From: Opitutales bacterium
GTDB lineage: Bacteria; Verrucomicrobiota; Verrucomicrobiia; Opitutales; Intestinicryptomonadaceae
NCBI GenBank assembly: GCA_015061945.1
Contig: SUVP01000003.1
Location: 124,001-188,000 of the forward strand
Length of the DNA: 64,000 nt
Direction of reading: 5' to 3'
Numbering within the stretch: position 1 is the first letter of the stretch; every line of letters starts with the position of its first letter. The notes under the pieces are model-generated. The model searched no databases and was not told where the DNA came from. It saw only the letters and a program-made list of their open reading frames with translations. Made by a program: the position numbers and the translations under genes. Below are positions 2,652 through 57,523 of the stretch, in pieces.

Positions 2652-4187
2652 TTAGTTTTCAGAAATTATTTTGTTCAAAATATCTTTTTTTATGAATACC
2701 GACAGCAAAAGATTTTTTCTTATGCCGTACATTTCTTCGTCGTACTTTGATTTATCGATAATTTTGCGAATAGCTTTTTCGGTGGAATAGTCGCAAACAA
2801 TTACATCAAAAATTTCCAAATTTTGTGGAATGTTATCGTTGCTCCAAAAGCCTACATTTCTATATTTACGCAAGAGAAATGGTGCTGGCCACATCGATTC
2901 TTTCGCAACAAACGCTACGGGAATATCGGTTTCGTATTGCGAATATTTTGAAGCCGAGTGAACACGTTTTATAAGGTTATCAAAGTCTCGAACAGTATGA
3001 GTATAAATGTATGGGTTGCGTGGGTCGCTATGGTATCTAAGCGATGCGTTGGAAGAAAGCTTATACTGCCAAAATGCGAGACCTGCAAGCACTACAAAGC
3101 CGACTATCTGAAGTATTATTTTTTTTGACGACATCAGCATTGCTGAACCAAAGCCTGCAACTGCACAAATAAACATCATTGGCGAAAGCAACAGCCATGG
3201 TGTTTTGTAAGTAATCATCGAAAGAATTAACACTGCAAAGAGTGCGTTTAAAAATGCGAAAATTGTGAACGTACATTTCCATGCAGATTTTTTTCGGTAG
3301 ATGATTGCGAGGGCAAATCCGAATATCGAGAGCAATACAATTGGCAGTTCGCCAAATTTTGCACCTTCGCATTTTTGCCAAAATAACAATTTAAAATAAT
3401 AGAAAAATCCGGATGCGTGTGCTTGCGATTCAGCTTTTTCAAAAAAGTGCGAGTACGATTTTATTGCATCGGCAACTCCGCCCCAATTTGAGCCAAACGA
3501 CGAGTACAATGCGACCATTGTGCATATCGCACCGAGTACAAATGCAAACGCAAGTTTAGGTGTTGCTTTCGACCATAAAATCCACTTAATATTTTCACGA
3601 AGCCGACTTTCTAACATCGCACAGACGCCAAAAGATAAGAACATTGAAGCGTATGAAATAATCGCGGTTTCTTTTGTCGATTGAGCAAGCCCAAGTAAAG
3701 TTCCAGTTGCGAGTGCAAGCCAGATATTTGGCGAACACGCAAACTGCCATGCACAGATAGCGAGTGCATAAATTAACGTAGCAAAGATTATTTCGTGTAC
3801 AAAATATCCTGAATAAATTTGTGCGATTGCCGACATAGCAAAGCACGCACACGCACCCCAGCTTGCTCCACGCCCGATATATCTTCCCGACAAGATGAGC
3901 AATGCCAGAGCAAATACTGTGACTGGTGTGAGTGCGTTTCTATAATCTTGAATTTTTATTTCAGCACTTGCTTTTTTTTGTGTTGCGTTTGCCCAGTAGT
4001 AGAGTGTTGGTCCGTGAGGTCCGTTCGGATTATATTTGTATTCTCCCGAATCGTAAAGTTGCATAGCAGTTGTAGCTTGTTCGGACTCATCTGCATGGAT
4101 TGCTCTATTTGCGATGTTTGTTTCTCGCAGTGAGAAGCCCGAAAAAAGACAGGCTAAAATTAGTGCTATGCCGAGTATGTATCTCAT
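2652..4187 (-). CDS. Agl23-like multi-pass glycosyltransferase-family membrane protein
   Basis: 511 residues with about ten hydrophobic segments. The N-terminal part carries HADESEQAT (Asp33-Glu34), then a G-E-Y-x-Y-N-P stretch and HGPTLYYWANA. This is the pattern of the flippase-associated Agl23/TIGR03663 group, relatives of PMT/ArnT-type (GT39/GT83) transferases, in which the early acidic pair after the first membrane helix serves lipid-linked sugar transfer. The substrate is unknown. The start overlaps the stop of the thioesterase gene by 4 bases and the stop is next to the ATG of the AsmA-like gene, so the four genes are probably one transcript. The link to envelope glycan assembly is inferred. 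Confidence 0.75.
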   Translation of the reverse strand: MRYILGIALILACLFSGFSLRETNIANRAIHADESEQATTAMQLYDSGEYKYNPNGPHGPTLYYWANATQKKASAEIKIQDYRNALTPVTVFALALLILSGRYIGRGASWGACACFAMSAIAQIYSGYFVHEIIFATLIYALAICAWQFACSPNIWLALATGTLLGLAQSTKETAIISYASMFLSFGVCAMLESRLRENIKWILWSKATPKLAFAFVLGAICTMVALYSSFGSNWGGVADAIKSYSHFFEKAESQAHASGFFYYFKLLFWQKCEGAKFGELPIVLLSIFGFALAIIYRKKSAWKCTFTIFAFLNALFAVLILSMITYKTPWLLLSPMMFICAVAGFGSAMLMSSKKIILQIVGFVVLAGLAFWQYKLSSNASLRYHSDPRNPYIYTHTVRDFDNLIKRVHSASKYSQYETDIPVAFVAKESMWPAPFLLRKYRNVGFWSNDNIPQNLEIFDVIVCDYSTEKAIRKIIDKSKYDEEMYGIRKNLLLSVFIKKDILNKIISEN

Positions 4188-35067: not shown

Positions 35068-36045
35068 ATGAAAAAAATTCTCGCTACATTTTTGATTTTA
35101 TCGACCGTCTTATCTTGCGTATTTGCGAAAGAAGTTTGCAAAATTGCGTATATCGGCAATTCAACTATGCCATCGGCAAATGTCGCAATTTACAACGGTG
35201 TACGCGATGCTCTAAACGAATTGCAATCACGATATGGAAAGAAGTTTGAGTTGGAATTTGTATCCGAATTTTCCGTCGAAAATCAAATTAAAAAAATCGG
35301 CAATGTGTATATCGACGGATATTCTGGGGCGGTCGTTTTCCCAATTTCAACAGATACAAAATTGACTTCAGCAGTGCGTGCATTGGCTGAAAAATCGTTT
35401 CCGGTTGTGCTTGTCGGCAGAGATTTAAAGGAGTCTAAAAGATTGCTTTACGTAGGCGGTGATGAAAAAAAGTTTTATGAAACGTTGTCGGAACAACTAA
35501 AAATTTTGGCAGGTAAAGATACTTTGCATTTGTATATCTACGGCAATTCAAACTCTTTCCTTGCCGATTCTACTGAACGTGCGAATGCAAAAGAAAAACT
35601 TTTTCAAGTTGCAAAAACGAATTTTAACGAGGTTCTCTTGAACACTATTTCTGATAAAAAAATTACGCTCGAGCTGATTGAACTTTACTCGCTTTTTACG
35701 ATGGCAAATAAAATATCGATTATGCGACGTGATAATTATGGAGAAATTTTTATGTCTCCAGAATTGCTCGCCGATATGACGCCTATCAACCGAGATACCG
35801 ATAGACGTTTTGCGATATGTGTCGGCGGTGCTCCGTATTTGTCAGAATATTTGCAGTCGGGGCAGTTGTCTGCTTGCGTGTATAACGACTTCTATGGATG
35901 GGGATATTTTTCGGCAAGAGCAATCGCAGAAAGAATTGTTGAATCTATCTTGCCATCTGCTGATATACGCCTAATTAAGCCACTTGTAGCGACTCCCGAA
36001 AACGCCGACTCGTTTAAATCTGATTGGAAAAAGTGGACTAAATAA
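35068..36045 (+). CDS. Periplasmic sugar-binding-protein-like protein (orphan)
   Basis: 325 residues with signal peptide MKKILATFLILSTVLSCVFA. The mature part begins KIAYIGNSTMPSANVAIYNGVRDAL, has YIDGYSGAVVFPIST and ALAEKSFPVVLVGRDL, and ends with CVYNDFYGWGYFSARAI. These are the hallmarks of the LacI/ribose-binding (Peripla_BP_4) fold. No ABC permease or ATPase gene is nearby, so it may act as a sensor ligand-binding protein or serve a transporter encoded elsewhere. Third gene of the tightly packed 33127-36045 unit. Confidence 0.78.
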   Translation: MKKILATFLILSTVLSCVFAKEVCKIAYIGNSTMPSANVAIYNGVRDALNELQSRYGKKFELEFVSEFSVENQIKKIGNVYIDGYSGAVVFPISTDTKLTSAVRALAEKSFPVVLVGRDLKESKRLLYVGGDEKKFYETLSEQLKILAGKDTLHLYIYGNSNSFLADSTERANAKEKLFQVAKTNFNEVLLNTISDKKITLELIELYSLFTMANKISIMRRDNYGEIFMSPELLADMTPINRDTDRRFAICVGGAPYLSEYLQSGQLSACVYNDFYGWGYFSARAIAERIVESILPSADIRLIKPLVATPENADSFKSDWKKWTK

Positions 36046-36081
36046 TCATAAAAAACAAATATTCAATTCATTCTTTTAAAA

Positions 36082-36097
36082 GTTAGAATAATCTAAC
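36082..36097. promoter_or_regulatory. Palindromic operator GTTAGAATAATCTAAC, shared with the feo operon
   Basis: Perfect 6-bp arms GTTAGA/TCTAAC around ATAA. Eight bases later comes TTGACA. The same arrangement (TTAGA-TAAA-TCTAAC, 8 bases, TTGACA) stands before the porin-feoAB operon at 53659-53687. TTAG-N6-CTAA resembles DtxR/IdeR/MntR-type sites, and the regulator assignment is inference. Confidence 0.7.
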
Positions 36098-36105
36098 ATT
36101 TTTTG

Positions 36106-36139
36106 TTGACAATATTTCTTTCTTTGTTTTAGCTATATT
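36106..36139 (+). promoter_or_regulatory. Promoter of the candidate small RNA
   Basis: Consensus -35 TTGACA at 36106-36111. Candidate -10 elements are TAGCTA (36130-36135, 18-base spacer) or TATATT (36134-36139, 22-base spacer). The exact -10 and start site are not certain. Confidence 0.6.
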
Positions 36140-36330
36140 CAACAAAATTAAAAATTGTTCTTTTTGATTCTTCAACTTGTTTTTTATTTTGCGAAATAGG
36201 GTAGAGGTTGCGTCCCGTTGATTTTCGCAAGACTCCTTTCGTTTGGCAAGTTGGAGATGCTAAAAAACAAAGTAATGCCATAAAACACGAGCCACTGGGG
36301 CTAATGACATCATCCCCAGTGGCTTTTTTT
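36140..36330 (+). ncRNA. Candidate metal-regulated small RNA
   Basis: This 367-bp gap has an operator, a promoter and a strong terminator on the plus strand but no credible reading frame, and the next gene (smc) is on the other strand, so this is not a leader. Structure seen: GCGAAA (36191-36196) can pair with TTTTCGC (36222-36228) around an inner GGG/CCC. CTCC (36233-36236) can pair with GGAG (36253-36256), presenting a pyrimidine-rich CTCCTTTC (36233-36240) that could bind ribosome-binding sites. It ends in the terminator at 36291-36330. The 5' end is a guess. GGGTAGAGGTTGCG recalls the start of lysine riboswitches, but the remaining conserved blocks are missing. Confidence 0.6.
36291..36330 (+). 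terminator. Strong intrinsic terminator of the candidate small RNA
   Basis: Perfect arms GCCACTGGGG (36291-36300) and CCCCAGTGGC (36314-36323), an inner ATGA/TCAT pairing in the loop, then seven T. One of the strongest terminators in the window, in a place with no upstream gene in the same transcript except through the small-RNA promoter or read-through from 36045. Confidence 0.93.
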
Positions 36331-36377
36331 AGATAAACTTACGTTTTGGTTTTGTTGCGTTAGAAAAATTTTACCCA

Positions 36378-36404
36378 CAAAAAAAGACGCCCGAAAGCGT
36401 CTTT
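36378..36404 (-). terminator. Intrinsic terminator of smc
   Basis: On the minus strand AAAGACGC/GCGTCTTT arms (36383-36390, 36397-36404) around a six-base loop, followed by a T-run (A-run on the plus strand). It lies 9 bases after the smc stop. Confidence 0.88.
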
Positions 36405-36412
36405 CATAAAAA

Positions 36413-39400
36413 TTAGTCTACAATTTTTTCGGCTTCTTTGAGCTTCATTGAAATCAAGCGTGTCACCCCTCGTTCTTGCATTGTAACGCCAAAGATTGTG
36501 TCCGCCGCCGACATCGTTCGCTTGTTGTGTGTGATAACAAGGAATTGCGAGTAGCGGATAAACTCTTTGAGCAAGTCAGTGTAGCGACCAACGTTTGCGT
36601 CGTCGAGTGGAGCGTCAAGCTCGTCAAGCACGCAGAATGGCGACGGTTTAACCATATAGATTGCAAAAAGCAACGATACTGCCGACATCGTGCGTTGACC
36701 ACCTGAGAGCAACGACAAGCTTTTAAGCACTGTTCCTGGCGGACGAGCGACAATTTCGATACCACTATCGAGTACATCTTCAGTTTCGACAAGTTTGAGG
36801 TCAGCAGTGCCACCGCCGAAGATTTTTTCAAAAGTGAATTGGAAATTCTTTCTGATTTGCTCAAAGGTGTCGGCAAAAAGCTTTTGGCTTGTTGCGTTAA
36901 TTTCGTCGATATCTGCAACGAGGGCATTTTTCGATGTCCAGAGGTCGTCAGTTTGAGCTTTGAGGAAGTCGTAGCGTTCCTTGAGTTCGGCGTATTCTTC
37001 GATTGCTGCGTGGTTAACAGCACCCATTGCGTTGATACGTTCACGCAACTCGCGTACTTCTTCATCGATTTTTCCGAAGTCGGTTTCGTCCATTTTTGCG
37101 AAATCTTCTTCGGTTGGTTCGCCACGTTCACGTTTTTGTTTTGGCGTTACTTCGCCTTCTTCGAGTTCATCGAGCTTTACACGAAGTTCAAATTCTTCGT
37201 CAGACTTCCAGAGTTCCATTTTCCAATCTACTGACGAAATTTCTGTTTCGTATTCATTGAGGATACGTTCCGAAATGTAATCTGTTTTTGCACGAAGTTT
37301 AGCGAGGCGAACATCGCAATCGTTCTTTTGTGAGTTCGCACGCATCAATGTTTCACGGTCGCCAGTTAGCGATTCTTCGTAGTCGGCTATTTTCTGTTCG
37401 CATTCACCAAGTTTTGCTCGACCTGCTTCGATTGTCTCGAGTGCTTGGCGGAGTGTTTCTGCAAGTGCGTCAGAACGTTCTTTTTCTGCGAGTGTCTCGG
37501 CGTCGAACTTTGTGATTTGGTCGGATATTGATTGCGATTCAATCGTGCGACGTTCTATCAATGAGCGTGTTTCGGCTTGTTGTTCACGGATTGTCGCCAA
37601 GCCTTTTTCCAAACTTTCCAATCTTGCACGTTTTGACGCAAGCTCGAGACGTGCTTCAGATACGACTGCATATTTTTGGTCTTTACTTTCACGAAGTTCT
37701 GCAATCTCACGTTCTTTTTGTTCTGCAATTTCTCTCGATTGTGCGATTGTTTTTTCGGCTTGTTCGAGTGCTTGCATCGCTGTATTGAGCTTATCTTGAG
37801 CTTCAAAACGTGAATTTTCCATTTCAGCGACCGATGCCGACTTTTTCTCTAAATCTGCCTTGCGTTCTGCTATTGCAGTTTCGGCTCCCGACGTTTGTGC
37901 GTTTATCGACGCAATTTCTCGCTTAATTTCAGACGCCACATTTTTGCGATTTTCAATTTCGACTTCTGCTGAATCGAGTTGTGCATTGATTTCCATCGCA
38001 TTTTCGTTGAGTGTCGTCAGGGCAGAATTATCAACTTCAATTTCTTCTTTGAGACGTTTTATTTCTGTATTGCGAAGTATGAAACTGCTTTCTGTGTCGC
38101 GTTTTTCTCCGCTTGAGGCGTAGACTATACCACGTGGGTCGAGAATACTGCCGTCTCGAGAGACTGCTGTGATAAAACGGAAACTGGGGTTGTTTGCAAC
38201 AAATGTCGCAAAACTTGCAATGTCTTCGCAGAAGAAGCAACCCGAGACCATATTTTTCACAAATGGCTTCAGATCTTCTCTGTCTGTTTTTACGATGTCA
38301 GCACCTTTGAAGATTCCGTCGGGCAGGGCGATTGCCGATTCTTCAAAATTATTTGACGATACTTGGAATGCCGCATTGCCGAGATTGCGTTCACGCAAAA
38401 GTGTGAGTGTTTGCGAAAGTTTTGATGAGTCTTCAAGTACGACAGCGTCGAGTGCAGAGCCGAGCATTGTTTCAAATGCAGAGGTCCAGCCGTCTGCAAC
38501 TTCTACATTTTGGCTGGCGATTTTCACGTTGTTTGCGTCGAAACATTCGGGCATTCGACCTTTCATAATCGACTTAACGCCTTCTGAAAATCCTTCCATT
38601 CTCGATTGGAAATCGTTGAGCAAACTTAGTCTTGCACTTTTACTTGCGAGCTGTCTGTCCATTTGCTGAATTTCCATTTGTTTATTGCGATATTGTGTAC
38701 GCAATTCTTCCGAGCGTGCTTGAGCTTCGGTAATATCGGCTTCGGCTGTCCCGAGTCTTTCGTTGGCATTTTCGAGTGCTAACTTCAATTCTGCTTCGCG
38801 ATTTTCGAGCGTAAGCAATTCTTCTTTTACTTGAAAAATTGAGTCCGACATTGCCGCATGTCGCACTTGGTACGACTTCAAGTCGACTTCAAGTGTCGTA
38901 CAATTTGCACGCAAACGTGTAACCGAACTTTCGCTCATCAAAGCTTCTTGGCGAGCTCTTGAAAGCTCGTTTTCTGATGCTCTGAGCATTTCTTCAATTT
39001 CAGCTAATTCTTGGCTATGGCGTTGGAAAACTTCGTCATCTGCCGATACCAAATTTAATTGCATTTGCTGAACTTCGATATCGCCTTGGGCTCTACCTTC
39101 GAGTGCTCCGAGTTGTTCGTTAAGAGAATTTATTTCTGTCGAAATTTGTTCGAGGCGTTCGGTGAGGTCTTTTTTACGGACGACTGCGAACTCGCTATTG
39201 CGTTCGGCTTGTTCTTTTTGAGAGCGTGTTTCAGCTGCGTTTTGACGCAAATAGTCGAGTTGCGATATGCACTGGGCTCGTTCAGCACGCATTTGTGAAA
39301 GTGTCTCTTCGGCGATAGTTAATTTTTGCGAAAGCTCGAAAATTTCTGAAGAAATTTTTTTCAACAATTCTTCATCTTCTTTTAGAAGTTTTGATTGTTC

Positions 39401-40105
39401 CGCATAATTTTTCGCATTGAGTGCGAGGTCGAGGTGTCGCAAACGGAAACTCAAACGCTTATATCGAAGTGCCTTTGATGCTTGGCGTTTTAATGACCCA
39501 ATCTGGCGACCAATTTCTTCGATTCTATCTGTCGCACGAGCAAGATTTTGTTCTACAAGTGCAAGCTTATTGAGTGCTTCGCGACGTTGCGTTTTGTACT
39601 TTGTTATACCTGCTGCTTCTTCAAAAATTGCACGACGCTCACCAGGGTTAGACGACAAAATTTGGTCGATTTGCCCTTGTACCATAAACGAGTACGACAC
39701 ACGTCCAATACCAGTATCCATAAACAGATTCTGAATATCTTTCAAGCGTGCCGATTTGCCGTTGATATAATAGTCGCTACCTTCGTCGCGTGTAACTTTA
39801 CGGCTGATTTCTACTTCGTTAAATTGTGTACCAAGTTGACCTTCGCAGTCAGAGAAAAGCAGGCTGACTTCGCAAAATTGCAAAGGTTTGCGTGTTTCTG
39901 TTCCTTGGAAGATGACATCTTGCATCTTGCCACCACGCAATGCTTTTGCACTTTGCTCACCGAGAACCCAACGGATTGCATCGACAATATTACTTTTTCC
40001 GCAACCATTAGGACCAACGATACACGTTATCCCAGGGGTAAGTGGAAGTTCCATCTTATCGGCGAAACTCTTAAATCCGTTGATTGTAACCTGCTTTAAA
40101 TACAT
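36413..40105 (-). CDS. smc: Chromosome segregation ATPase SMC
   Basis: 1230 residues. N-terminal head with Walker A GPNGCGKSNIVDAIRWVLGEQSAK, a long coiled coil (about 170-500), a hinge region (about 510-670), a second coiled coil (about 680-1000) and the C-terminal head with LSLLSGGQRTMSA (ABC signature) and CVLDELDAPLDDANV (Walker B and D-loop). It compacts and separates chromosomes with ScpAB, which are not in the window. One base after alaS, so probably leuB-alaS-smc is one transcript. Confidence 0.97.
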   Translation of the reverse strand: MYLKQVTINGFKSFADKMELPLTPGITCIVGPNGCGKSNIVDAIRWVLGEQSAKALRGGKMQDVIFQGTETRKPLQFCEVSLLFSDCEGQLGTQFNEVEISRKVTRDEGSDYYINGKSARLKDIQNLFMDTGIGRVSYSFMVQGQIDQILSSNPGERRAIFEEAAGITKYKTQRREALNKLALVEQNLARATDRIEEIGRQIGSLKRQASKALRYKRLSFRLRHLDLALNAKNYAEQSKLLKEDEELLKKISSEIFELSQKLTIAEETLSQMRAERAQCISQLDYLRQNAAETRSQKEQAERNSEFAVVRKKDLTERLEQISTEINSLNEQLGALEGRAQGDIEVQQMQLNLVSADDEVFQRHSQELAEIEEMLRASENELSRARQEALMSESSVTRLRANCTTLEVDLKSYQVRHAAMSDSIFQVKEELLTLENREAELKLALENANERLGTAEADITEAQARSEELRTQYRNKQMEIQQMDRQLASKSARLSLLNDFQSRMEGFSEGVKSIMKGRMPECFDANNVKIASQNVEVADGWTSAFETMLGSALDAVVLEDSSKLSQTLTLLRERNLGNAAFQVSSNNFEESAIALPDGIFKGADIVKTDREDLKPFVKNMVSGCFFCEDIASFATFVANNPSFRFITAVSRDGSILDPRGIVYASSGEKRDTESSFILRNTEIKRLKEEIEVDNSALTTLNENAMEINAQLDSAEVEIENRKNVASEIKREIASINAQTSGAETAIAERKADLEKKSASVAEMENSRFEAQDKLNTAMQALEQAEKTIAQSREIAEQKEREIAELRESKDQKYAVVSEARLELASKRARLESLEKGLATIREQQAETRSLIERRTIESQSISDQITKFDAETLAEKERSDALAETLRQALETIEAGRAKLGECEQKIADYEESLTGDRETLMRANSQKNDCDVRLAKLRAKTDYISERILNEYETEISSVDWKMELWKSDEEFELRVKLDELEEGEVTPKQKRERGEPTEEDFAKMDETDFGKIDEEVRELRERINAMGAVNHAAIEEYAELKERYDFLKAQTDDLWTSKNALVADIDEINATSQKLFADTFEQIRKNFQFTFEKIFGGGTADLKLVETEDVLDSGIEIVARPPGTVLKSLSLLSGGQRTMSAVSLLFAIYMVKPSPFCVLDELDAPLDDANVGRYTDLLKEFIRYSQFLVITHNKRTMSAADTIFGVTMQERGVTRLISMKLKEAEKIVD

Positions 40106-44069: not shown

Positions 44070-45665
44070 TTATTTCTTTCTGCGATAGATTGCAAAACCG
44101 AGTGCGAGGCTACCGAGAATCATCGCCCATTCAGCTGGTTCTGGAACAGCAACTGCCGACAACCAACCATTGTTGATGTACAGGTTTTGAATCTTTACTT
44201 CTTCGCCATCGATTGTTTGGTATGCGTCAAAGACGTTGTTTGGGTTTTCAATTTTGTTTGTAACAAAGATTCTATTTTCTGCAAAATCGTGAATTACAAT
44301 TTTTGAATCGTCTACCCCAAAATAAGAGGTCAAAGTAGAATCGTTAGTTGTTGAAAGATAGATATCGATATTCTTTCCGTTTGTAGAAATGCTCTTAAAA
44401 GCTTGGTTTGCTTCTATTCTGATAATCGAACCAGTTGAGCCTGATGTTCCTTTAATAGAGAGAAGTTCGCCTGTCGATGTTGTCATAGCGTTTTCTTGTT
44501 TGAGAATCAATTCTCCGCTACCCAAAACTACAGACGAGCCGAATTCTGATTGTCCATCAACATAGAATTTTGCACCTTCTTCGATTGTGATATCTGCCCA
44601 TTTTGCATCAATATCAGTTTTAGCACCACCATTAATTTGTAGATAACCGCTTGTCTTAAATGTAGCACCATTTTTGATTGTTGCTTCTCTATTGAAATAC
44701 GTTACGTTGCCAGATAATTGTGTTAAAGACGAACCATCGTTAAGGACAAATTGTGCAAGACTTGTAGCACTACCCAATTCTACTTTTCCATAGATGTCTA
44801 AATTATGTCCATTCCCATGTTTTAAGTTTTTAATGTATGTAGTTGTTTTTTCACCCAATGTTACAGCACCATTTCTGATTTCCCATGTGCCTTGAATGTT
44901 AATATTTGTTTGACCATTAAAACTTATACCACCCACCGGTGTAGCTGTCACAAGTTTTGAGCCTTCTTCAACATAAATCTGTGGGACAAGATAACTACGG
45001 TCAACGCCATCTTCTTCTAAAACTTGATCTCCAACTGTATTTATTCGTGAAGCGATTGTGAAAGTAGAATTGTTTGTAACATTCAAACGTGAAGCTTTTC
45101 CCAAATAAAAAGCATTAGCATCATTTAAAGTTGTTGTGAAATTTGTATTTGTTTGAATGTTTAATGTTGGGGTCTGTTGTGCATTTGCACCACCAGAAAG
45201 TTCAAATTTTTTTGAACCACCGTCGATGATTGCTGTTACAGCCGAGCCTTTTGAATTCTTGATTGTAAAGGACCCCATTTGCAAATTAAAATAGCTCGAA
45301 GATTCATTCTTAAATACGTTGTACGTTTTTGGGTCTTCGTCAGTCGTTGGGTTTGCTGTTGCAATATCAAAAGTATATGTACCAAGTGTATTCCACCAAG
45401 TTGGTGTAGTTGATACTGTCGAAGTTTCTGGAATTGTTACACCACCAGCTTTTAATGTAAAACTTTTTGCCGCATATAAAATGGTTAGGTTTGAAGACCC
45501 TATGCGAGCTCTTTTTTTGTCAGAAGCAGTGTAGTAAACGTTGACATCATCTTCAACATTTACAAATCCAGCAAGTGAATCTGCTGTAGAAATGACAAAA
45601 TCAGTAGCAAACAATGCTCCTGAAATTGACATAATTGCGAGGGTAAGTAGGGCTTTATTTTTCAT
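44070..45665 (-). CDS. Secreted PEP-CTERM protein, beta-solenoid type (531 aa)
   Basis: Signal peptide MKNKALLTLAIMSISGALFA, then a long Asn/Thr/Gly-rich beta-strand repeat region with phrases such as LNDGSSL and IKNGATFKTSG, like autotransporter passenger stalks. It ends with VPEPAEWAMILGSLALG followed by a short hydrophobic stretch and Arg/Lys, the PEP-CTERM sorting tail cut by exosortase. It is expected at the outer surface or in extracellular polymer. Function unknown. No exosortase gene is in the window. About 470 bp of repeats lie upstream, and 45666-45821 looks like plain AT-rich promoter DNA. Confidence 0.85.
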   Translation of the reverse strand: MKNKALLTLAIMSISGALFATDFVISTADSLAGFVNVEDDVNVYYTASDKKRARIGSSNLTILYAAKSFTLKAGGVTIPETSTVSTTPTWWNTLGTYTFDIATANPTTDEDPKTYNVFKNESSSYFNLQMGSFTIKNSKGSAVTAIIDGGSKKFELSGGANAQQTPTLNIQTNTNFTTTLNDANAFYLGKASRLNVTNNSTFTIASRINTVGDQVLEEDGVDRSYLVPQIYVEEGSKLVTATPVGGISFNGQTNINIQGTWEIRNGAVTLGEKTTTYIKNLKHGNGHNLDIYGKVELGSATSLAQFVLNDGSSLTQLSGNVTYFNREATIKNGATFKTSGYLQINGGAKTDIDAKWADITIEEGAKFYVDGQSEFGSSVVLGSGELILKQENAMTTSTGELLSIKGTSGSTGSIIRIEANQAFKSISTNGKNIDIYLSTTNDSTLTSYFGVDDSKIVIHDFAENRIFVTNKIENPNNVFDAYQTIDGEEVKIQNLYINNGWLSAVAVPEPAEWAMILGSLALGFAIYRRKK

Positions 45666-45821: not shown

Positions 45822-46036
45822 CTAATAGCTAAAATGAGAAAAGAATAAATAATCTAACAACTAAAACGAAAAAAAAGAATAAATAATCTAACAACTAAAA
45901 CGAAAAAGAGAGTAAATAGTCTAACAACTAAAACGAAAAAAAAGAATAAATAATCTAACAACTAAAACGAAAAAAAGAGTAAATAGTCGAACAACTAAAA
46001 CGAAAAAAAGAAGAAATAATCTAACAACTAAAACGA
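45822..46036. repeat. Tandem array, 33/34-bp unit, six good copies plus one decayed
   Basis: Unit core CTAACAACTAAAACGAAA followed by an A/G/T spacer ending AATAAT. Copy starts at 45854, 45888, 45921, 45955, 45988 and 46021 give periods of 34, 33, 34, 33, 33. A degenerate copy starts at 45822. The core CTAAAACGAAA is also the outer end of the structured repeat copies, and the array runs straight into copy C. No unique spacers, so not CRISPR. Confidence 0.92.
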
Positions 46037-46133
46037 AAGACCACCAACGCCTTGGTGGTCTTTCTGTAAATTCGGCAACCCGTTTCAAAGGACGATTGGC
46101 TACGCCAATGTCCGCCGGTGCCCGTCATACAAA
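46028..46133 (-). repeat. Structured repeat family, copy C (terminator-like), behind PEP-CTERM gene
   Basis: On the minus strand it starts right after the stop of the 651-residue PEP-CTERM gene: GTATGACGGGCACCGG, hairpin 2 (GGAC..ATTGGC / GCCAAT..GTCC, loop GTA), linker GGGTTGCCG, hairpin 1 (GAAAGACCACCAA / TTGGTGGTCTTTC) and CGTTTTAG. Compared with copies A and B, hairpin 1 has four changed base pairs, all compensated. Loop bases and linkers are kept. Confidence 0.9.
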
Positions 46134-48089
46134 TTATTTGCGACGGCGATAGATTGCGAAGCCGAGAGCGAGGCTACCGAGAATCATCGCCCATTCAGCT
46201 GGTTCTGGAACAGTTGCGAAAGCGTAGTTGAGCCAGAATCCGCCTGTTGTTGATTGCCAGAAGAAGTTTTCGTCTGCAAGTTCTGTGCCATCGAGAGCTT
46301 CGCCTGAGAATGTGATATAATCGAGGTTTGATCTTGAAACTACGAAAATTTTATTGTTTTGGAAATCTTCAAATATGATGTTTACGTTTTCATTATTTTG
46401 TCCACGGATTTGACTTGCTGTGATGCCAGCATTATCATTACCCAAGGCGATAGTGATGCTTGTATCTTTTTGAATATAGAAGTCGCTAACGTTAATGTTT
46501 TTATATAGTTCAAGGCGTGGTTTGTATGTACCTTGAGGTGTTGTTATTTCAAATTTGTCTGTTCCGAGGTCGGCAGATTCTCTTACAATAAGAGTACCAT
46601 TTTTCAAAAGAACTTTTGGTGTTGTCAATGTGCCGTAAAGATCGAGCGTGCCATTTAATTCCAAGCCATAAGCGTATGTTGAAGTAGTTGTGGCAGCCAA
46701 GTTGATTTTACCATCTTTATTAACAATAGTTTTGCCAGCGTCTATTTTTAAGTAGTATGTGTTTGATGTGAACGAAGCCGAAACTTTGAGTTCGCCATCA
46801 ATGGTGATAGTATTTGCATTTGCACCGATAACACCTTGTGTATTGGTGTATTCAATCAATGCGTCTTTTGCGATATTGATATTACCGCCAAGTTGGACGG
46901 CTGTTGTGAAAGTAGATGTTCTTTGTGCGTCCCAAGTTGATGTTTTAGCAAATGTGATTGTTCCACCATTTTGGTTGATAGCACCAGTAAATTTTGAACC
47001 ATTATTGAGGACAAGAGAATGACCAGATGGTGCCATATAGTATGTTCCACCGACAGAAAGTGAGCCGTTGACAGTTGTCTTGTGGTAATTTAAGCAAGCT
47101 TCCTTGCCAGTACTTGCTTTAATATCGCCACCGACAGTCATATTACCGTCAATTTGGAATGATGAAGTTCCTGATGAATTTGTAGCAGCATCGCCCACAA
47201 ATACCAAATCTTTTGCGATAGACACATTGCCACCTGCATCAACATTCAATGAGAGTGGGTTTAACTGATTTCTCCTAAATTCAAGATTGTCGTAAACATT
47301 GAGAGTGCCATTATTTTCTACTTTAAGTATACTTCTTGTACCCATGTGGAAAGTGCCAGTGTTGACAACGCCACCATCGTTAATAACGAGTTTTGTTCTG
47401 ACGCCACCACCTTTGGTGTCGTATGGGTTTGTGCTCCAATCGAGTTCAATTTTGCCCCATTGGTCTTGGCTATCGTTGTATGCGTTAACTGTGCCTGCAA
47501 TATTTATGCCATTGCCGTAGTCATTTACAGATCCCCAAAAAGAAAGGGTAACGTACGAATTGATAGTAGAACCTTTTTCAAAATAAATACCTTTTGAAAA
47601 GCTTGAGGTTTTTGTAGACGCCATTACGATTGATGCCACCGCATTTGTGCCAGTTGCCGAACCCGACGAAATAATGTCGTAATTTCCACGAATACGCAAA
47701 CTGCCTTCGAGCGAGCCGAGCGAATATTGGATAACTGTTCTTTCTGTTGCGTCAGATGCGTTGATATCAAAAGTTGTTACGCTATCTGTTGCAGTATTGT
47801 CTATTACATAATTTGAAGTGATAGACTCATCAGTAAAGATTGCTCTGAGTGTTGGCGAACCATTTATGTCGTAATAAAGTGTTCCGTCTGATGCACCAGT
47901 GAGTTTGACATACGATGTATTTTTGAGTTCTGGTTCTTCGCCTCCCCACGCAGTTGCGTCGGTAAAGAGGGCAGGGTTTTCAGCGTCAGACGAGCCAGTG
48001 ATAGTGTCGGTAGCTGTTTTAATATATGCTGGGCTTGCGAACAATGATGTCGCCATTACCAACGGAAGATAGAATGCTATTTTTTTCAT
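46134..48089 (-). CDS. Secreted PEP-CTERM protein, beta-solenoid type (651 aa)
   Basis: Start set at 48089 (MKKIAFYLPLVMATSLFASP, signal peptide). An in-frame ATG 15 codons earlier lacks a signal. The body is a Gly/Asn/Thr-rich ladder of short strands (KLVINDGGVVNTGTFH, LKVENNGTLNVYDNL) resembling autotransporter adhesin stalks. The last residues match the other PEP-CTERM protein (VPEPAEWAMILGSLALG), so both use the same sorting machinery and perhaps arose by duplication. Role unknown, surface matrix or adhesion likely. Its stop codon is followed at once by repeat copy C. Confidence 0.85.
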   Translation of the reverse strand: MKKIAFYLPLVMATSLFASPAYIKTATDTITGSSDAENPALFTDATAWGGEEPELKNTSYVKLTGASDGTLYYDINGSPTLRAIFTDESITSNYVIDNTATDSVTTFDINASDATERTVIQYSLGSLEGSLRIRGNYDIISSGSATGTNAVASIVMASTKTSSFSKGIYFEKGSTINSYVTLSFWGSVNDYGNGINIAGTVNAYNDSQDQWGKIELDWSTNPYDTKGGGVRTKLVINDGGVVNTGTFHMGTRSILKVENNGTLNVYDNLEFRRNQLNPLSLNVDAGGNVSIAKDLVFVGDAATNSSGTSSFQIDGNMTVGGDIKASTGKEACLNYHKTTVNGSLSVGGTYYMAPSGHSLVLNNGSKFTGAINQNGGTITFAKTSTWDAQRTSTFTTAVQLGGNINIAKDALIEYTNTQGVIGANANTITIDGELKVSASFTSNTYYLKIDAGKTIVNKDGKINLAATTTSTYAYGLELNGTLDLYGTLTTPKVLLKNGTLIVRESADLGTDKFEITTPQGTYKPRLELYKNINVSDFYIQKDTSITIALGNDNAGITASQIRGQNNENVNIIFEDFQNNKIFVVSRSNLDYITFSGEALDGTELADENFFWQSTTGGFWLNYAFATVPEPAEWAMILGSLALGFAIYRRRK

Positions 48090-48311
48090 ATGTATATAAA
48101 AAGGGTTTAAATTTTGATATAAAAAGTAGAGCAAGATTCTTAAATTTCAAGTATTTTTTTTCTATTTAAGGAAAACGGTTTACATACTTATGTTTTTTGT
48201 CGGGATATAGTTGCGAATTTTTTATTTGTCGCATCGGTTTTATTATACTTTTAAAATCAAGGAGTTGATTGGGGAAATGTGTAAAATTTGAAAAAATTTT
48301 TATAAAAGTGC

Positions 48312-53650: not shown

Positions 53651-53657
53651 CGAAAAA

Positions 53658-53687
53658 ATTAGATAAATCTAACTTTTTTTGTTGACA
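53658..53687 (+). promoter_or_regulatory. Operator 1 and -35 box of the porin-feoAB operon
   Basis: TTAGA-TAAA-TCTAA palindrome (53659-53672), C, seven T, G, then TTGACA (53682-53687). Sequence and spacing match the small-RNA promoter at 36082-36111 almost base for base. The -10 is unclear (near CATAGG, 53708-53713). Confidence 0.75.
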
Positions 53688-53688
53688 A

Positions 53689-53704
53689 GTTAGTTTTAAC
53701 TAAC
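53689..53704. promoter_or_regulatory. Operator 2 of the porin-feoAB operon
   Basis: GTTAGT-TTTA-ACTAAC, perfect arms, placed between -35 and -10 where a bound repressor would block RNA polymerase. Same 16-bp plan as operators 1 and 3. Confidence 0.72.
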
Positions 53705-53778: not shown

Positions 53779-53794
53779 GTTAGATTGAGCTAAC
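53779..53794. promoter_or_regulatory. Operator 3 of the porin-feoAB operon
   Basis: GTTAGA-TTGA-GCTAAC ends 7 bases before the porin ATG. Outer five bases of each arm (GTTAG/CTAAC) are perfect. It could add to repression or cover the ribosome-binding region. Confidence 0.65.
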
Positions 53795-53801
53795 AAAATT
53801 T

Positions 53802-55073
53802 ATGAATAAAACAAAACAGATAATTACAGCCACAATTTGTGGAATATCGTTAATTGCATCTTCAGTTTTTGCTCAAGATGCCAAATGTGCTTGCGGTGGA
53901 AAGGATGCAAATTGCCAAGATAAAACTCCTGAATGGCTCAAGCGTGATAGTCTCTTTTTGTCATCGGCAACAGAAAGCCTTACAGAAAAAACAGGTTTTG
54001 CTCCGTCGATAGTTTGGACAGGTGAAGGGTGGGCTGATGTCAGCCGTGGTTCAAATATCGAAAGTATGTTCGATTCTTTGTTTACACTTGGCTTTGAACA
54101 AGACTTGTCGGTTGCGACAAAATCGAACGGACTCGGTCGAATTGGCGTAAGTGCATTTTACTATACACAGACAAACGATGGTGCGTTGGGCGATTTAGAT
54201 TCATCGCAAGGTTGCTGGAGTAATATCGTCGCAGGCGATATGGCGAGAGTTTTTGAAATTTATTATGCAAACGATTTTGAGACAAAAATTGGTGATTTCG
54301 GGTTTAGAGTTGGTCAGCTTGCAGCCGATGAAGATTTTATGGGAATGGATTATTCCGATACATTTTTGAACTCGTCGTTTGGAGCAATTCCAAACGTTGC
54401 ACCAGCTCAACTTTTCTCGCAATATAATGTTGCAACGCTGGGTTTGGTTGTCTACTATGCGTACGAAAACTTTGATGCTACATTTGGTATTTACAATGGT
54501 AATATTGGGCAAGATATTTCGTCGAACAATGGTTTTGATTACTCGCATACTTTTGATACAATCGCAGTTTGGTATCAGTTGGGATACAACTACAAAATTG
54601 GCGAATTAGATGGTCGAGTAATGTTTGGTGGAAATTATCATAGCTCGCCAGATAAAATTAACTTTGACCAAATTGATGCAAACAGTTTTTATTCTTTTTA
54701 CTTTGGGGTACAACAGGCTCTCATAAATGATGCAGAAGGTAATGCAAAGTTTGGGGCTTTTGCTCGCATAGGTTGGGCACCTGACAGTAAATCGTCAGAC
54801 CAAAATTTTTATGCAGACTTTGGCTTCAACTGGTTTGCACCAATCCCGACGCGTACAGACGACGTTTTTGCAATCGGCGTATCGGTTGTTGAAAACGAAC
54901 GCAGTGCTCGTACGGAGTATGCACATTATGAAGGAACACTCGAAGCTACATACAGATTCCAAATTACACCAGCAATATCATTCCAACCCGATATGCAAAT
55001 ATATCTCAACCCAAATGATGATGCAAAGGGTTCGGCATACGTTGTAGGTGCGAGAGTCGAAGTGATATTTTAA
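53802..55073 (+). CDS. Outer-membrane porin, OprB-like, of the iron operon
   Basis: 423 residues with signal peptide MNKTKQIITATICGISLIASSVFA. The short mature N-terminus holds four Cys (KCACGGKDANC), then W-x-G-E-G-W-A-D-V-S-R-G and repeated amphipathic strands. The last residue is Phe in VVGARVEVIF, as in outer-membrane barrels, and the segment before it (AISFQPDMQIYLNPN) matches the end of OprB-type carbohydrate porins. It has three metal-type operators upstream and is 12 bases before feoA, so it probably admits iron or iron chelates rather than sugar. The Cys-rich N-terminus is unusual. Confidence 0.8.
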   Translation: MNKTKQIITATICGISLIASSVFAQDAKCACGGKDANCQDKTPEWLKRDSLFLSSATESLTEKTGFAPSIVWTGEGWADVSRGSNIESMFDSLFTLGFEQDLSVATKSNGLGRIGVSAFYYTQTNDGALGDLDSSQGCWSNIVAGDMARVFEIYYANDFETKIGDFGFRVGQLAADEDFMGMDYSDTFLNSSFGAIPNVAPAQLFSQYNVATLGLVVYYAYENFDATFGIYNGNIGQDISSNNGFDYSHTFDTIAVWYQLGYNYKIGELDGRVMFGGNYHSSPDKINFDQIDANSFYSFYFGVQQALINDAEGNAKFGAFARIGWAPDSKSSDQNFYADFGFNWFAPIPTRTDDVFAIGVSVVENERSARTEYAHYEGTLEATYRFQITPAISFQPDMQIYLNPNDDAKGSAYVVGARVEVIF

Positions 55074-55085
55074 TAATATTTGAAT

Positions 55086-55370
55086 ATGGCTAAAAAAACA
55101 GAAAATTCACAAAAAAGTGTTAGCTCTAACAAAGAGCTGACACTTGCCGATTTGCCTATTGGTTCGTCGGCAACAATCGTTAAGATTATTCCAAACGCAC
55201 GTGGTGGAAAAAAATTTGCTGATGTCGGGCTTGTCCCCGGTACTGAATTAGTGATGGAATCGCACGCACCATTTGGCGGATTGATTCGTGTAAAAGTTAT
55301 GGAAACAAGTATGGCTTTGCATAGCGACGATGCGAAAAATATTGTGATGAAAAAGGAATCTAAAAAATGA
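55086..55370 (+). CDS. feoA: Ferrous iron transport protein A
   Basis: 94 residues from the ATG at 55086. An upstream in-frame TTG is less likely. SH3-like small domain with LADLPIGSSATIVKI, GGKKFADVGLVPGTELVMESHAPFGGLIRVKV and a final MALHSDDAKNIVM, the FeoA pattern. A charged N-terminal extension of about 20 residues precedes it. It acts with FeoB at the inner membrane. The stop overlaps the feoB start (ATGA). Confidence 0.95.
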   Translation: MAKKTENSQKSVSSNKELTLADLPIGSSATIVKIIPNARGGKKFADVGLVPGTELVMESHAPFGGLIRVKVMETSMALHSDDAKNIVMKKESKK

Positions 55371-57523
55371 AAAAGAAATTTAAAGTCGCACTGATTGGCA
55401 ATCCAAACTGTGGTAAGACTTCAATCTTTAATATGCTCACAGGAGCACGCCAGCACGTTGGCAATTACCCTGGTGTAACTGTCGAAAGTAAGGCTGGTTC
55501 GTTTACAATCGGCGATGCAGAAATTGAACTTATCGACCTTCCTGGAGTTTACTCGTTGTCATCAAATTCTCCAGAAGAAGACGTAGCTTTTAATGAACTG
55601 ACAAAGGCTGGAATTGACCTCATCTTGAATGTTATCGATTCATCAATCGCGCGCAGAAGTTTGTATCTGACAACACAACTTGCCGAGCTTCACATCCCAA
55701 TGATGCTCGTGTTCAATATGAGCGACGACGCACAGAAAAAGGGAATAAAATTTAATATCGAAAAGCTCGAAAAATATTTTGGCTCGCCAATTGCACAAAC
55801 GGTTGGTCGCACATCAGACGGGGTAAGACCTTTGGTTGAAAAACTCACTGTTGCGCTGGAAAACTTGGAAAATCACGGTGTGCCAATGCTTTCGTACGGC
55901 AGTGATATTGACGATTCAATCGAGGCAGTTGCAAAGAAAATTGACGAATTGAAAATCGAAAGATACGCACATATTCCGTCGAGATTTTTTGCAATCAAAC
56001 TTCTCGAAAGCGATTCTTGCACGATGAAAATCCCCGAGCTGAAATCGGTAATGGGCGAAGTTGCGGAACAGATAAAACACCTTTCAGATATTCACGCAAT
56101 CGACGATACAACAACTTTTATGGCAGATTGTCGATATGCAATGCTCTCGGGTGCGTGCCGTGATGCTGTTATGATGACAGGTGAACGTCGCAGAGAAATC
56201 TCTGATAAAATCGACGCTGTTATGACAAATAAATTCTTCGGTTTGCCGATTTTCTTCTTGGCGATGTATATCACATTCTGGTTTACATTCACATGTGCAG
56301 ACCCAGTTATGGGCTGGATTGAAGAGTTTTTCGGTTGGCTCGCAGACTCAGTAAACGCAGTTTGGAGCGAAGACACAATGCCATATTTACGCTCGATGAT
56401 TACCGACGGGATTATCGCTGGTGTCGGTGGTGTTGTAGTATTCTTGCCGAATATCTTGTTTATGTTCTTTGCGATTGCGATTCTCGAAGAGAGTGGATAT
56501 ATGTCGAGAGCGGCATTTGTTATGGACGGGCTTATGCGTAAGTTCGGCTTGCAAGGTAAATCGTTTGTTCCGCTCGTGTTGGGCTTTGGTTGCACCGTTC
56601 CAGCGATTATGGCAACACGTGGTATTGAATCGGAACGAGACCGCAAGACGACAATTATGGTCCTCCCATTGATGAGTTGCGGTGCGAGATTACCAATTTA
56701 CGCACTATTGATTCCTGCATTCTTTGCTCAAAAATATCAAGCGTTGATGATGTGGATAATTTATTTAATCGGTGTAATTGTCGCACTCTTGGCGGCGAGA
56801 TTGCTGAAAAATACAATCTTTAAAGGCGACGGCGAAGTCTATCTTATGGAATTGCCTCCGTACCGTTTGCCAACATTACGTTCGCTTCTCTTGCATATGT
56901 GGGATAAAGGCAAGGTATATTTGCAAAAAGCTGGGACAATCATCTTGGCGACATCAATCATCTTGTACATCGCAAACACATATCCAGAAAAAACGGAGTT
57001 CTCAAAAGATTACGACGCTTTGACTACACAAGTTGAAAAATCAAATATCGACAAAGAAAAGAAAGAAGAAGCACTCGCTACTCTCGAGAACGAAAAAATG
57101 GCTGAATCGATGGAATATACAATATCGGGCAGTGTAGGTAAATTCCTCGAACCAGTGTTTAAGCCAATCGGTTTCGACTGGAAACTTACAACTGCAACAA
57201 TCGGTGCGTTGGCTGCAAAAGAAGTGTTCGTGTCGCAGTTGGGTATTCTTTACGCAGAGGGCGAAGCCGACGAAGAATCGGATACATTGCGTCAACGTTT
57301 GGCAAAGCATTATACGCCACTGCAAGCATTCTGTATGATGTTGTTCGCATTGTTATCCATTCCGTGTTTTGCGACACTTGCAATTATCAAACGGGAAATG
57401 AATTCTTGGAAAATGATGTTTGCCGAAGCTGGAATTTTGTTTGCGTTGGCATACATTACAACGATGCTCGTTTATCAAGTTGGAAGTTTGTTGCAAATCG
57501 GCACAAAAATAATCGGACAATAA
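55367..57523 (+). CDS. feoB: Ferrous iron transporter B
   Basis: 718 residues. N-terminal G domain with GNPNCGKTSIFNMLTG (G1), IDLPGVYSL (G3) and FNMSD (G4), a helical linker domain, then the membrane part with two gate repeats, including FVPLVLGFGCTVPAIMATRGI and MVLPLMSCGARLPIY with the conserved Cys. The C-terminal region has about ten membrane helices. It takes up Fe2+. Coupled to feoA by a 4-base overlap and followed by a small Cys-rich gene. Confidence 0.97.
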   Translation: MKKKFKVALIGNPNCGKTSIFNMLTGARQHVGNYPGVTVESKAGSFTIGDAEIELIDLPGVYSLSSNSPEEDVAFNELTKAGIDLILNVIDSSIARRSLYLTTQLAELHIPMMLVFNMSDDAQKKGIKFNIEKLEKYFGSPIAQTVGRTSDGVRPLVEKLTVALENLENHGVPMLSYGSDIDDSIEAVAKKIDELKIERYAHIPSRFFAIKLLESDSCTMKIPELKSVMGEVAEQIKHLSDIHAIDDTTTFMADCRYAMLSGACRDAVMMTGERRREISDKIDAVMTNKFFGLPIFFLAMYITFWFTFTCADPVMGWIEEFFGWLADSVNAVWSEDTMPYLRSMITDGIIAGVGGVVVFLPNILFMFFAIAILEESGYMSRAAFVMDGLMRKFGLQGKSFVPLVLGFGCTVPAIMATRGIESERDRKTTIMVLPLMSCGARLPIYALLIPAFFAQKYQALMMWIIYLIGVIVALLAARLLKNTIFKGDGEVYLMELPPYRLPTLRSLLLHMWDKGKVYLQKAGTIILATSIILYIANTYPEKTEFSKDYDALTTQVEKSNIDKEKKEEALATLENEKMAESMEYTISGSVGKFLEPVFKPIGFDWKLTTATIGALAAKEVFVSQLGILYAEGEADEESDTLRQRLAKHYTPLQAFCMMLFALLSIPCFATLAIIKREMNSWKMMFAEAGILFALAYITTMLVYQVGSLLQIGTKIIGQ

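Follow-up and report, generated by a model that had tools for sequence, protein, structure and literature searches.

Results

A stand-alone unit between convergent genes

The window analyzed here, a stretch of 64,000 nucleotides from an Opitutales genome, contains a gap at 36046-36412 that houses a compact unit on the forward strand. The upstream gene has its stop codon at 36045 and belongs to a co-directional operon encoding reductase-like, serine hydrolase-like and periplasmic binding proteins; a neighbor-gene search in the named genomes found no relative of the periplasmic binding protein. On the other side lies smc (36413-40105), which converges on the unit and has its own terminator-like repeat at about 36380-36406, as read from the sequence. 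There is thus no same-strand gene downstream and the unit stands alone, in agreement with an earlier note on this DNA.

The unit opens with a DtxR-type operator, GTTAGAATAATCTAAC (36082-36097, forward strand), in which the arms GTTAGA and TCTAAC flank the bases ATAA. Read directly, this is an interrupted inverted repeat of 6-4-6 architecture rather than the perfect 16-bp palindrome described in the earlier note: the 6-bp arms are exact but the central four bases are asymmetric. The -35 element TTGACA is located where the note had placed it, eight nucleotides past the operator (36106-36111). A possible weak -10 element, TTAGCT (36129-36134), can be positioned by the 17-nt spacing of the feo and dtxR promoters of the lineage, whose own -10 elements, at this same spacing, are TTTTAT- or TTTCAT-like. 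A sigma-70 consensus scan called no forward-strand promoter at the unit. The sequence suggests an RNA start site at about 36141-36146.

The predicted non-coding RNA is about 190 nt long (36141-36330, forward strand). The earlier note had described this segment as lacking a credible reading frame over about 190 nt, as containing local pairing, and as ending in a 10-bp GC-rich terminator with seven T. The first and last of these descriptions hold, with the frameless stretch measuring about 180 nt. No forward-strand ATG frame of at least 15 amino acids is present in the unit, and the longest frames are one of 42 amino acids that starts with TTG (36208) and crosses the terminator and one of 21 amino acids that also starts with TTG. 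The intrinsic terminator (36291-36330) is composed of the arms GCCACTGGGG (36291-36300) and CCCCAGTGGC (36314-36323) followed by TTTTTTT (36324-36330), with a folding energy of -24 kcal/mol and a z-score of -6.24. The claim of local pairing stands in part: a long imperfect hairpin is predicted at 36155-36270, but the body with the terminator excluded (36141-36286) folds only marginally better than shuffled sequences (z -1.55, 15/200), and most of the whole-RNA score (z -3.85) is due to the terminator. Within the body, a loop, CUCCUUUCGUUU (36233-36244), is predicted to be single-stranded with a mean unpaired probability of 0.77. The earlier note had raised the question of a known riboswitch or housekeeping RNA, and Rfam gave no such match: at the gathering score the window yielded two tRNAs only, and at E values up to 10 only chance matches. 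Altogether, the anatomy of the unit, an operator, a TTGACA element and a terminator between convergent genes, is confirmed; at the sequence level the features of an independent transcript are the terminator and the -35 element, together with a poor -10.

The operator is shared with ferrous-iron uptake

As the earlier note had observed, the operator and TTGACA block recurs in the window before a porin-feoA-feoB operon. The copy (53658-53687, forward strand) has one operator mismatch, and 31 of the 35 bases at 53654-53688 are identical to the block of the unit. Two further operators, both exact matches to GTTAGN6CTAAC, lie between the -35 and -10 elements (53689-53704) and immediately before the porin start codon (53779-53794). 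The genes that follow on the same strand encode an OprB-family porin (53802-55073; Pfam PF04966, E 2e-32), FeoA (55080-55370; Pfam PF04023, E 8.1e-15) and FeoB (55367-57523; NCBIfam TIGR00437, above cut-off).

Exact GTTAGN6CTAAC sites number three in the window, compared with 0.0 expected per 64 kb under an order-1 Markov model, and these three are the only ones in the genome, all of them in the unit and feo intergenic regions. A reversed control pattern occurs five times genome-wide, so the ten fixed bases of the operator carry no significance on their own. The larger block, consisting of the operator, eight bases and TTGACA, is found with up to three mismatches at two places in the 2.5 Mb genome, the unit and feo; the control pattern for the block is found at none.

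In a search of 19 family genomes, copies of the block with 0-1 mismatch were assessed by what follows them, and each stands before dtxR, OprB-porin/feoAB genes, an imelysin gene or a stand-alone unit that lacks a long gene. Those in G006, G007, G008, G012:C89, G016 and G003:C7 precede dtxR or porin-feo, and the copy at G001:C1:1308980 precedes an imelysin gene. In congeners and family members the motif lies either before a second feoB or before a run of genes that starts with a DtxR-family member and continues with the OprB porin and feoAB, with DtxR identity established by Pfam PF01325/PF02742 for one representative (L097) and recognized from translations for the others. In one species the genes behind the operator encode an imelysin and a di-haem oxidoreductase, both of which are types common in iron regulons. 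The promoters have a recurrent layout of operator, eight T-rich bases, TTGACA and 17 bases, often followed by TTTNNT and sometimes with a second operator within the 17-base spacer. The 8-nt distance from operator to TTGACA is present in 11 of 12 tabulated promoters of the lineage, a proportion that partly reflects selection, since an 8-nt pattern was used to find most of them; it is 7 nt in G004 and G009. A pattern scan of named genomes, run with a 7-base spacing, also returned the Opitutales record L178 and a feo operator in another record, L182. In L182, GTTAGN6CTAAC flanks the promoter on both sides before feoA-feoB-like genes (2920-2948, minus strand), which indicates that this operator class is wider than the family.

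A single gene in the unit's own genome, G000:C9:15148, exceeds the Pfam cut-offs for the DtxR family (PF01325, 61.5 bits; PF02742, 61.2 bits). Its best PDB matches are the diphtheria toxin repressor, and it has the C-x-x-E-H metal motif of DtxR along with an aspartate at the position of DtxR Met10, as in MntR. The NCBIfam equivalog cut-offs for MntR and DtxR are not reached by this protein. With metal-site residues that are a mixture of DtxR and MntR, Fe(II) is suggested as the ligand by the feo target. Its own promoter carries a degenerate operator. Because the motif tracks dtxR and feo genes across the family and the only DtxR-family gene above the cut-offs has this degenerate site of its own, we consider the operator most likely to be that of a DtxR-family metalloregulator under its own control, and not of Fur. 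The comparative data thereby lend support to the earlier proposal that the unit and iron uptake have in common the operator of a metal-sensing repressor, and place an apparent iron-regulator operator at the unit's promoter. The genome's one FUR-family gene lies on another contig, close to a ferritin gene. A Fur box at the unit promoter was considered and rejected, as the GTTAGN6CTAAC repeat appears to follow dtxR and feo genes.

No homologue of the RNA body in the relatives searched

Stand-alone units lie behind the same block in two congeners. The unit at G003:C1:234628 (L130, L075) spans about 150-200 nt, ends in GC-rich terminator-like repeats and is followed by recN, of which it could alternatively be a leader; positions 1685-1815 of L075 fold with a z-score of -6.0, terminator included. 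The unit at G012:C178:10323 (L134) has a strong terminator and sits between a divergent glycosyltransferase-like and a convergent phoU-like gene, as judged from their translations; it contains a possible 32-amino-acid ATG frame, MGTMTCSTHAIVHKKLKGMGGAKVCQGIKFVS, that ends well ahead of the terminator. Local alignment revealed no similarity beyond shuffled sequences among the bodies of these two units and that of the window.

BLASTN searches of 36 genomes recovered only the window itself, as did a covariance model built on this one RNA and run on 19 family genomes. No such unit is present beside smc in the 15 relatives compared for synteny. One of the genomes searched, G010, gave no candidates in any search; the stretch there reads as N and is probably masked. 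Without a homologue, neither covariation in the body nor selection on it can be demonstrated, and it is on this point that any functional claim is weakest.

In the feo leaders of L137 (G014), L149 (G012) and L102 (G016), the stretch between the feo operators resembles a decayed dtxR gene, and intact dtxR copies are present elsewhere. The gene seems to have been relocated and to have decayed repeatedly. Local alignments of the RNA body to the feo leaders scored no higher than shuffles, and those to dtxR DNA of its own and related genomes revealed no similarity (z between -1.2 and 0.2).

Candidate targets

The earlier note had proposed that a free CTCCTTTC pairs with ribosome-binding sites and that aconitase and QueE are natural targets. 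The loop is indeed predicted to be unpaired, but the leaders of window genes pair with an anti-Shine-Dalgarno octamer no better than shuffled leaders do (mean -0.71 versus -0.67 kcal/mol, 29 genes), and no Shine-Dalgarno-type site precedes acnA, queE or the ferritin gene. These results do not favor masking of ribosome sites in the manner of FsrA and IsrR as a general mechanism, nor do they favor a general role for the CUCCUUUC loop in pairing to ribosome-binding sites in this genome; specific pairing of the RNA with a few mRNAs is possible. A search of the unit's own assembly for a 16S 3' tail to compare with CTCCTTTC found no such site. The two proposed targets fared poorly in a target scan limited to the window (up to 49 ORFs), in which acnA ranked 26th and queE 45th and the top targets included no iron gene.

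Discussion

Our findings lead us to propose, at a probability of about one half, that 36082-36330 is a DtxR-controlled unit specifying a non-coding RNA of about 190 nt that is iron-repressed along with porin-feoAB and lowers mRNA expression by pairing. We envision a scenario in which the regulator, in the presence of ferrous iron, would bind GTTAGAN4TCTAAC beside the -35 element and keep both the RNA and the porin-feoAB operon silent. Iron shortage would allow the two to be made, and the RNA would base-pair with mRNAs and reduce their expression, much as the IdeR-controlled MrsI does in mycobacteria. We read it as a lineage-specific small RNA, with transcription, repression by iron, action in trans and an iron-saving role as inferred properties.

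The sign of regulation is suggested by similar dtxR and porin promoters, since the operator lies upstream of the -35 element, a position from which a DtxR-family protein could also activate. IdeR activates some genes from upstream sites, and the window's feo promoter has a second operator, overlapping its core, that is missing from the unit. This raises the possibility that the regulator turns the RNA on in plentiful iron from its single operator. However, an operator between -35 and -10 is also missing from two dtxR promoters (G003 and G006) and from the porin promoter of G008; all three carry only the upstream site, at the same spacing, and are expected to be iron-repressed, and we therefore regard activation as very unlikely. 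It is also distinctly improbable that the upstream operon extends to 36291-36330 as its own terminator, which would make the RNA the 3' end of that operon and any small RNA a 3'-UTR product. The genes are co-directional, and a terminator scan called no intrinsic terminator from the stop codon at 36045 up to the operator, but the scan was insensitive enough to miss the long-loop terminator at 36291 as well, and a full operator and TTGACA block in the layout of the feo promoter intervenes. We give least credence to the idea that the unit encodes a small iron-regulated peptide, instead of or alongside a regulatory RNA: the ATG frame in the G012 unit is consistent with it, but the frames in the window are very short or start with TTG, the longest of them crosses the terminator, and no peptide is common to the three units.

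A more serious alternative, although one that we consider unlikely, is that duplication and decay of the dtxR/feo promoter left the block behind as a stray copy. The DNA behind it would then be chance sequence or a remnant, and a transcript, if made, would have no function. The presence of the block at several loci per genome, the decayed appearance of dtxR in some feo leaders, and an RNA body unique to its own genome in which covariation cannot be demonstrated are all in keeping with such an origin. Yet the body does not resemble dtxR DNA, a strong and clean terminator has been retained, and the operator and -35 element are intact, all of which speaks against it. A further hypothesis, speculative and rather unlikely, is that in this Opitutales genus the DtxR/feo promoter block has repeatedly been copied before unrelated non-coding stretches and that different species have evolved iron-responsive small RNAs independently, with no common RNA ancestry.

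To our knowledge, DtxR-controlled small RNAs are rare, with MrsI the sole example. The mycobacterial IdeR-MrsI pair is the closest system in logic to the RNA proposed here. MrsI has a site for IdeR, a DtxR-family regulator, near its start and is induced by iron limitation (PMC11188477, PMC9410917). Like MrsI, the RNA proposed here would be a stand-alone structured RNA with an intrinsic terminator, a DtxR-family site near the start and an iron-starvation logic, and it is in logic that the two are likened. MrsI differs in being about 100 nt long, and its transcript, its response to iron and its targets (bfrA, fprA) have been demonstrated. IsrR of Staphylococcus and FsrA of Bacillus are Fur-controlled and carry C-rich motifs (PMC9410917). 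They resemble the predicted RNA in length (IsrR is 174 nt), in an iron-repressor operator and in C-rich single-stranded stretches, of which there is one here, the free CUCCUUUC loop. Their C-rich motifs act at Shine-Dalgarno sites under Fur control, in contrast to the DtxR-type operator and lack of a Shine-Dalgarno signal found here, and IsrR is conserved throughout its genus, unlike this RNA.

The earlier note had read the unit as a possible RyhB-like iron regulator. RyhB and PrrF are Fur-controlled, Hfq-dependent and covered by Rfam models. The likeness to them lies in co-regulation with iron uptake and in an iron-sparing logic, but the RNA of the window has neither an Rfam match nor a Fur-type operator. 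Membership in the RyhB/PrrF/FsrA sequence families was therefore rejected, there being no match to any Rfam covariance model. What survives of the RyhB-like reading is a predicted stand-alone unit with an operator common to ferrous-iron uptake; Shine-Dalgarno pairing, the aconitase and QueE targets and the family membership are not supported. By analogy, the RNA probably works like known iron-saving RNAs.

We found no iron-responsive small RNA from Verrucomicrobiota or Opitutales in the searchable papers. The data presented here point to a clear DtxR-type regulon in uncultured Opitutales, comprising dtxR, an OprB porin, feoAB, a second feoB and imelysin. If expressed, the RNA would offer a way to study the de novo origin of regulatory RNAs through the capture of a regulated promoter, as well as small-RNA action where Shine-Dalgarno sites are scarce.

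Other features of the window

The window also contains two adjacent genes (44070-45665 and 46134-48134) for secreted repetitive proteins with near-identical C-terminal anchors, VPEPAEWAMILGSLALGFAIYRRK, that resemble a PEP-CTERM sorting signal. Between them, at 45839-46038, lies a tandem array of six units of 33-34 bp each, with the consensus AAAAGAATAAATAATCTAACAACTAAAACGAAA; most units contain AATAATCTAAC, which exactly matches the right-hand part of the operator at 36082.
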